Shown in pieces: positions 38,042 to 38,154 of a DNA stretch of 64,000 nt. The notes under the pieces were generated by a model, which made no database searches, was not told where the DNA came from, and saw nothing but the letters and a program-made list of their open reading frames with translations. The stretch is from the NCBI RefSeq assembly GCF_000702885.1, contig NZ_JNKO01000016.1, forward strand, positions 1 through 64,000, read 5' to 3'. Origin of the DNA: Oribacterium sp. P6A1. Lineage in GTDB: Bacteria > Bacillota > Clostridia > Lachnospirales > Lachnospiraceae. How positions within the stretch are numbered: position 1 is the first letter of the stretch; each line of letters opens with the position of its first letter. The translations under genes and the position numbers were made by a program.

Positions 38042-38154
38042 GGCTGTGTTAAACACAGAGATTCGGAGCCAATGGGGGCGCCTTTCAGGAAAGAGGGCGT
38101 AGTCTGTCCTGGCATCCGGATTTTTTTTTAAGAAATGTTTCCTGAAGGAGGAAA
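38042..38154 (+). promoter_or_regulatory. Structured gdhA leader RNA with terminator and alternative anti-SD pairing
   Basis: Hairpin CTGTGT/ACACAG (38044-38058). A closing stem, ATTCGGAGCC (38061-38070) with GGC-A-TCCGGAT (38111-38121), runs into nine T residues (a terminator). Nested inside is CGCC-TTT-CAGG-AAA-GAG-GGCG (38079-38099), whose CAGG loop can pair with CCTG at 38108-38111. CAGGAAA (38086-38092) can also pair with TTTCCTG (38138-38144), which otherwise pairs with GGAAA at 38150-38154 and masks the ribosome site. It looks like a riboswitch or attenuator of no class I recognise. The rest of 37921-38041 holds only a short CAGAC/GTCTG hairpin (37962-37975). Confidence 0.6.

Follow-up and report, generated by a model that had tools for sequence, protein, structure and literature searches.

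In the genome of Oribacterium sp. P6A1 (Lachnospiraceae; NCBI RefSeq assembly GCF_000702885.1), the gene gdhA, encoding a glutamate dehydrogenase, is preceded by a structured leader at positions 38,042 to 38,154 of the stretch of DNA that we analysed, namely the first 64,000 nucleotides (nt) of contig NZ_JNKO01000016.1 (the window; its genome is G000). We read this leader as a transcription attenuator worked by the single ANTAR protein of the genome, with a probability of roughly 0.8. The leader has two alternative, mutually exclusive folds, one of which displays a six-base loop (hexaloop) whose first base is A and whose fourth is G (A1/G4). Hexaloops of the same type lie before further nitrogen-metabolism genes of this genome, and across the family such loops correlate with carriage of an ANTAR gene. 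The most informative part of the leader is the A1/G4 hexaloop hairpin at 38065-38082, which a first-pass annotation, made from the sequence alone, had overlooked.

We propose that the nascent leader would first form the AATGGG hexaloop hairpin with its A1/G4 signature. As the RNA lengthens, the 5′ arm of this hairpin would be drawn into a terminator hairpin followed by nine U residues, the two folds being mutually exclusive. An active ANTAR protein, probably under nitrogen scarcity, would hold the hexaloop hairpin, thereby keeping the terminator open and allowing read-through into gdhA, which would thus be on under nitrogen shortage. With the ANTAR protein inactive, the transcript would end at the U-tract. 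Once the polymerase has read through, the released loop UUUCAGGAAA may pair beside the Shine-Dalgarno site and adjust translation.

Two mutually exclusive folds in the gdhA leader

The pairings named at first pass are all present in the leader (Table 1): the CTGTGT-TAA-ACACAG hairpin, a closing stem that runs into nine T residues, an inner-arm loop CAGG (38086-38089) facing CCTG (38108-38111), the complementarity of TTTCAGGAAA (38083-38092) to TTTCCTGAA (38138-38146), and the TTTCC/GGAAA pairing around the ribosome site. The leader also folds more stably than chance: the segment 38036-38131 reaches -35.4 kcal/mol (z -3.51), a value equalled by 0 of 200 shuffles. When the growing transcript is folded in six-base increments, the hexaloop hairpin comes out as the most stable structure at 36, 42, 48 and 66 nt, and the terminator is the predicted fold from 72 nt onward. 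The terminator is absent from the output of a simple terminator scan of the region. In one intermediate fold, at 66 nt, the CAGG/CCTG pairing occurs beside the hexaloop hairpin. As a pseudoknot, this pairing holds in part: it is intact in six of nine genus leaders and kept through G-U in a further one (G008), but one position is broken in G004 and it is absent from G002.

Table 1. Features of the gdhA leader and of comparable leaders in the same genome (window positions, unless a locus is named).
Feature	Position	Strand	Description	Basis
gdhA	38160..39494	+	NADP-type glutamate dehydrogenase, 444 amino acids	Pfam PF00208/PF02812; NCBIfam NF006929 (NADP-specific glutamate dehydrogenase)
Predicted gdhA promoter	38013..38041	+	TTTACT - 17 nt - TATAGT; TG precedes the -10	consensus scan
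First hairpin	38044..38058	+	CTGTGT-TAA-ACACAG; probably outside the device	sequence, promoter scan, genus comparison
Putative ANTAR-type recognition/antiterminator hairpin	38065..38082	+	GGAGCC[AATGGG]GGCGCC	sequence, folding, genus alignment, parallel leaders
Intrinsic terminator	38059..38129	+	AGATTCGGA-GCCA pairs with TGGC-A-TCCGGATTT; T-tract 38121-38129; absorbs the hexaloop hairpin	
Inner-arm loop of the terminator	38083..38092	+	UUUCAGGAAA; complementary to the stretch directly 5′ of the Shine-Dalgarno site	
UUUCCUGAA (38138-38146) and Shine-Dalgarno GGAGG (38147-38151)	38138..38151	+	partners: inner-arm loop, or GGAAA behind the Shine-Dalgarno site	
glnN leader hexaloop			GGAC[AATGGC]GTTC; inside a terminator-like hairpin	
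amtB-PII leader hexaloops, two in a row	L345, leader about 2070-2290		GAGGC[AAGGGT]GCTTC and GCGC[AAGGGT]GCGT	
Ammonium transporter fused to P-II domain	L345 315-2069	-	584 amino acids; AAGGGT in the 5′ arm of both hairpins	
Asparagine synthase leader hexaloop			CGGC[AAAGGA]GTCG	
Aminotransferase leader hexaloop (gene adjoins glnA)			AGGGC[AACGGC]GTCCT	

The predicted promoter matches the consensus at 9 of 12 positions, and since the region gave two such sites against 1.8 expected, the scan alone is no proof. Its -10-like TATAGT (38036-38041) recurs as TATAGT or TATATT at the equivalent place in ten genus leaders, and the transcript would start near 38048. The first hairpin had been counted as part of the device. 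Because it begins directly behind TATAGT, transcription probably starts at or downstream of its 5′ arm, and the hairpin is not conserved in G014, G004, G012, G008 and G002; on these two grounds we rejected it.

The leader had also been said to match no nameable class. This is true of Rfam, the comparison proposed at first pass: the covariance models of Rfam 15, run over the whole window, place nothing on the leader at gathering score, and with the cutoff relaxed to E 10 (37780-38200) the only match over it is at chance level (E 8.6). The ANTAR target motif, however, was already described (Ramesh 2012, Walshe 2022). Elsewhere in the window, the sole Rfam match at gathering score is a bacterial small signal recognition particle RNA (29854-29952, minus strand). 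Upstream of gdhA ends an open reading frame of 897 amino acids, by eye presumably a bifunctional aldehyde-alcohol dehydrogenase, followed by a long hairpin with a T-run (37869-37913) that is probably its terminator.

Hexaloop hairpins in genome, genus and family

In the window's genome, five further hexaloops (AATGGC, AAGGGT twice, AAAGGA and AACGGC) sit in terminator-like hairpins before nitrogen-metabolism genes. The full segment folds as a long hairpin in all six hexaloop leaders, and in four of them (gdhA, glnN, asparagine synthase and aminotransferase) the hexaloop hairpin is the predicted early fold. Since similar devices appear to stand before glnN, amtB-PII, asparagine synthase and aminotransferase, gdhA would belong to a nitrogen-assimilation regulon. 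Within the 64-kb window, the loop rule AA.GG. (at least three pairs, with a T-run) fires twice, at gdhA and at the start of the azlC gene. The azlC hexaloop, AGGAC[AAAGGC]GTCTT (21680-21705), lies just 5′ of the second possible ATG of azlC (Pfam AzlC) with no terminator between, and could be either a chance occurrence or a translation-acting site.

Within Oribacterium, we found gdhA in 17 of 17 genomes, and within the family in 278 of 299. A DNA-level search across 145 related genomes recovered the leader in ten genomes of the genus, the window's own included, at 79-100% identity, the remaining matches being short and near chance level. In these ten (of 17 genus genomes), the U-tract terminator and a core of about 70 nt are conserved, and an alignment of 11 leaders shows the hexaloop hairpin varying only at loop position 6 and at one position of the stem. 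Thirteen of the 17 genomes have an ANTAR gene, and none of the other four (G005, G007, G009 and G013) has the leader. The 13 comprise the ten with the leader, G001, which has a different A1/G4 hexaloop (GTC[AAAGCG]GAC), G003, whose match does not include the gdhA start and whose leader was not recovered, and G006, to which we return below. Two nearer relatives carry GCGGC[AAAGGC]GCCG and GAGGC[AAAGGC]GCCT before gdhA (L271 and L272). An attenuator with mutually exclusive folds, as proposed at first pass, is thus backed by folding, conservation and the parallel leaders.

Across the genus, the word GCCAATGGRGGC has 21 matches: the ten gdhA leaders, one site in G012 and ten others. The G012 site (L101, around 1500), GATGCC[AATGGA]GGCATAGGCATC, lies between glnA and the ANTAR gene, upstream of the latter, which suggests ANTAR self-regulation; in the window's genome the corresponding interval has no such hexaloop.

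For the family, we compared 145 gdhA leaders (16 Oribacterium leaders plus 129 from a family draw), 118 from genomes with an ANTAR gene (ANTAR+) and 27 from genomes without one (ANTAR-). The ANTAR+ leaders were drawn from the top of a list ranked by GdhA similarity. Of 37 ANTAR- genomes, 32 have gdhA, and the ANTAR- leaders are the 27 of these in which the gene start could be read; G225, G078 and G088 (start unresolved), G080 (no locus) and G071 (distant homologue only) were left out, and G158 was retained despite its uncertain start. Of the 118 ANTAR+ leaders, 52 contain an A1/G4 hexaloop followed by a T-run, versus 1 of the 27 ANTAR- leaders, the latter belonging to G269, a genome that is 70% complete. 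Shuffling the 118 leaders gave a mean of 6.0 and a maximum of 11 (20 runs), and four control loop types were found in 4 to 7 of the 118 and 0 to 2 of the 27. With nine near-copies of the window's leader excluded, the ANTAR+ count is 43 of 109; the Fisher p is 3e-5 with and 1.6e-4 without these near-copies, kinship being uncorrected in both.

The preference for six bases also emerges from a test that takes every AANGG word, and hence involves no selection for pairing. A six-base loop is closed by at least three pairs in 44 of 158 such words, versus 6-7 of 158 at loop lengths of 4, 5, 7 and 8 (34 of 141 versus 5-7 without near-copies), and closure is seen in 2 of 21 words of ANTAR- leaders and in 0 to 11% for seven control words. 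In 30 amtB loci (best-scoring, one per genome, from a 60-genome draw of which 43 had a match; all 30 ANTAR+), six-base closure is 23 of 137 versus 5-10 for other loop lengths, and 11 of the 30 loci have an AA.GG. site with a T-run. Among AANGG words located 8-18 nt behind a -10, 22 of 35 are closed, and elsewhere 15 of 122; permuting the 3′ arms (2000 runs) gave a mean of 10.8 and a maximum of 16 against the 22 observed. The corresponding ANTAR- figures are 0 of 2 behind a -10 and 2 of 21 elsewhere. This test, like that of the room at the 5′ end described below, leaves out the nine near-copies.

The stems themselves vary: GAC/GTC is commonest in gdhA leaders (15 of 44), alongside GCC/GGC, GGC/GCC, GGC/GTC, AAC/GTT, TAC/GTA and others, and the amtB loci add AGC/GCT, CAC/GTG, TGC/GCA and CGC/GCG. 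In G186 (L051), two candidate single-hexaloop attenuators (AATGGC, then AAAGGC) stand in tandem upstream of one gdhA. A GdhA 68% identical to that of the window lies on a contig labelled Methanomethylophilaceae archaeon MAG (metagenome-assembled genome; L280), which could reflect horizontal transfer or a binning error.

These comparisons bear on two alternative explanations. The first-pass annotation had favoured a new metabolite riboswitch, that is, a ligand-binding riboswitch or attenuator for glutamate, glutamine, 2-oxoglutarate or ammonium. Such a device would suit the strong fold, the central nitrogen gene, the exclusive pairings and the 70-nt core shared by ten genomes. Beyond close relatives, however, it is hexaloop and terminator that recur, too small for an aptamer, and the feature tracks a protein gene, that of ANTAR; with the lack of an Rfam match, this makes a riboswitch highly improbable, and we dropped the claim. 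Alternatively, the leader could be a plain terminator or attenuator under another RNA-binding protein, its hexaloop likeness being coincidental. ANTAR binding is indeed read from motif and co-occurrence, the ANTAR- leaders are few, and some genomes are incomplete; yet six loops of the same type before nitrogen genes, the loop-length specificity and the clustering of the ANTAR gene with one of the targets leave this explanation little room.

The ANTAR protein and the number of hexaloops

The window's genome has a single ANTAR match (G000:C15:52239-52397; PF03861, 60.8 bits), within a protein of 200 amino acids (L090 9204-9806, minus strand). Its gene is flanked by glnA (type I glutamine synthetase) and glnN (type III), and the cluster is followed by an open reading frame of 1547 amino acids that we take, on our own reading and with no database match, to be the large subunit of glutamate synthase. 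In Clostridium, the regulator NitR lies beside glutamine synthetase. We aligned 43 ANTAR proteins (13 from the genus, plus the 30 with the highest scores out of 265 family genomes that gave a match) to the EutV chain, taking its numbering as two ahead of that in Walshe 2022 (PMC8934654), from which the RNA-contact residues were adopted. Contacts K149 and E160 are retained in all 43 proteins and M172 in 42. The position of the phosphorylated Asp holds Asp in only 2 of 43 and is Cys in the window's genome; the receiver-like region therefore probably works without phosphorylation.

Ramesh 2012 (PMC3369931) describes the ANTAR target as an A1/G4 six-base loop on a short stem that overlaps a terminator. 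In the gdhA leader, the hexaloop AATGGG (38071-38076) is closed by at least the three pairs called for, as GCC[AATGGG]GGC (38068-38079), its hairpin overlaps the intrinsic terminator as the terminator-proximal hairpin of published targets does, and the genome has its one ANTAR match. In sequence, the leader would also fit the single-hexaloop motif of Walshe 2022. What was not found in 53 ANTAR+ leaders is the arrangement of two hairpins with a short linker, the rule used being without a positive control. These 53, the window's leader included, are the ANTAR+ gdhA leaders with a site in the last 300 nt, and in none does a second A1/G4 hexaloop (at least three pairs, at least two of them G-C) occur within 0-30 nt; the 30 amtB loci gave one incidental pair. 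As a dual-motif control we turned to eut loci, with eutB found in 3 of 13 genomes that have two ANTAR matches. The three loci scanned gave no pair under the strict rule and five under a looser one, none of which could be connected with a terminator-bearing eut leader, so that the sensitivity of the rule to unusual P1 hairpins is unmeasured.

A -10-like hexamer lies 4-45 nt upstream of the hairpin in 20 of 23 family sites (the window's included), versus 38% of random positions. Taking the nearest -10, a choice that favours short spacing, at most 4 nt of predicted transcript precede the hairpin in 16 of the 20 sites. If transcription starts as predicted, these sites have no space for an upstream partner hairpin. 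In our reading, one hexaloop appears to suffice in place of the published pair. NasR has been measured to bind a lone hairpin at about 12 uM, more weakly than the pair (PMC7496416).

Several observations weigh against an ANTAR-operated, single-hexaloop attenuator. At 54 and 60 nt of the growing gdhA transcript, the inner arm rather than the hexaloop hairpin is the predicted fold. Both amtB units show a smaller loop in their predicted early fold, and no run of at least four T directly follows the asparagine synthase hairpin. The ten genus leaders are too similar to reveal compensatory changes in the hexaloop hairpin, G006 has an ANTAR gene yet no element before gdhA, 66 of the 118 ANTAR+ gdhA leaders lack a site by the rule used, and GAC/GTC is the dominant stem in gdhA leaders elsewhere. 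In the 43 ANTAR proteins, EutV Tyr164 is replaced by His in 39 and Asn173 by Asp in 31; Arg168 is Gln or Glu and Lys143 is replaced in all 43, Arg142 is Arg in 12, and Lys147 is Arg or Lys in 29. Lastly, in E. faecalis both hexaloops are needed, deletion of P1 abolishing induction (Ramesh 2012, PMC3369931), and EutV binds isolated single hexaloops while antitermination still needs two (Walshe 2022, PMC8934654).

These last results raise the possibility of a conventional dual-hairpin target, whose second hexaloop (P1) is weak or non-canonical and was missed nearby. The antiterminating ANTAR targets considered here have two hexaloops (PMC3369931, PMC8934654), and in the window the predicted transcript has 19 nt ahead of the hexaloop hairpin, which is room for a small element. 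Set against the lack, by the rule used, of a second hexaloop in the 53 leaders and the short upstream spacing in 16 of 20 sites, we consider a hidden partner unlikely.

The searches for ANTAR targets described in PMC3369931 and PMC8164766 used a two-hairpin model and would therefore tend to miss single-hexaloop attenuators. Among the matches listed in a search of open-licence PMC articles, none dealt with gdhA or amtB attenuators of the ANTAR type in Lachnospiraceae or with single-hexaloop terminators, although Table S2 of Ramesh 2012 may list some. Extended to the whole family, the proposal is an ANTAR nitrogen regulon of Lachnospiraceae in which a single 5′-end hexaloop within a terminator suffices, the receiver cannot be phosphorylated, and, in Oribacterium, gdhA read-through is tied to translation by the loop. 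We regard this wider proposal as evenly balanced between right and wrong. Walshe 2022 (PMC8934654) called for single motifs to be studied both computationally and by experiment, and the dozens of candidate single-hexaloop terminators before central nitrogen genes of one large family make that question directly testable. The model predicts switching of glutamate dehydrogenase, glutamine synthetase III and ammonium uptake in these bacteria, and offers a possible explanation for leaders that resemble orphan riboswitches.

Possible translational control and comparison with known systems

The complementarity between the inner-arm loop UUUCAGGAAA and the site before the Shine-Dalgarno sequence may add translational control of read-through messages. 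We compared it with shuffles in eleven leaders, most of them near-copies, with the windows of G001 and G319 set by hand. Counting Watson-Crick pairs, the p-value, calculated for each leader separately, is 0.001 or less in G000, G016, G015, G004, G012 and G010 and 0.0015 in G014, the complementarity spanning 7-8 nt in G000 and close relatives. G001 has a different 8-nt match, GAAACAGC/GCTGTTTC (p 0.007), and matches are weak in G008 (6 nt, p 0.02), G319 (6 nt, p 0.20) and G002 (5 nt, p 0.38). With G-U pairs allowed, p ranges from 0.002 to 0.67 over the eleven leaders (0.002-0.014 in close relatives, 0.06 in G001). Cross-pairings sometimes equal a leader's own, the loop of G319 matching the site of G008 over 9 nt. 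Because most leaders tested are near-copies, the pairing is suggestive rather than established.

Control could even be chiefly translational, through this apical loop, with termination secondary. The 7-8 nt complementarity in the window's genome and its close relatives and the alternative match of G001 speak for this. The weakness in G002, G319 and G008, the weaker p-values once G-U pairs are allowed, the near-copies and the equally good cross-pairings speak against it, as does the conservation of the U-tract terminator in ten leaders, and we find a mainly translational device improbable.

Among known systems, riboswitch-type attenuators (Rfam classes) share with the gdhA leader a terminator and an alternative fold in one leader; they differ in that the gdhA leader has no Rfam match and that beyond close relatives only the hexaloop is conserved, with no aptamer. 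The dual-hexaloop ANTAR targets (EutV/eutP, NasR/nasF and AmiR/amiE) have in common with the gdhA leader the A1/G4 hexaloop, the short stem, the overlap with the 5′ arm of the terminator, the nitrogen genes and an ANTAR protein in the genome. Unlike them, the gdhA leader has one hexaloop, which in family sites mostly lies where the transcript is predicted to begin, and the receiver-like region of the ANTAR protein lacks the phosphorylated Asp in 41 of 43 proteins. With the single-hexaloop motif of Walshe 2022, the leader shares one hexaloop as the minimal binding unit; the difference is that here the single hexaloops lie inside terminators.
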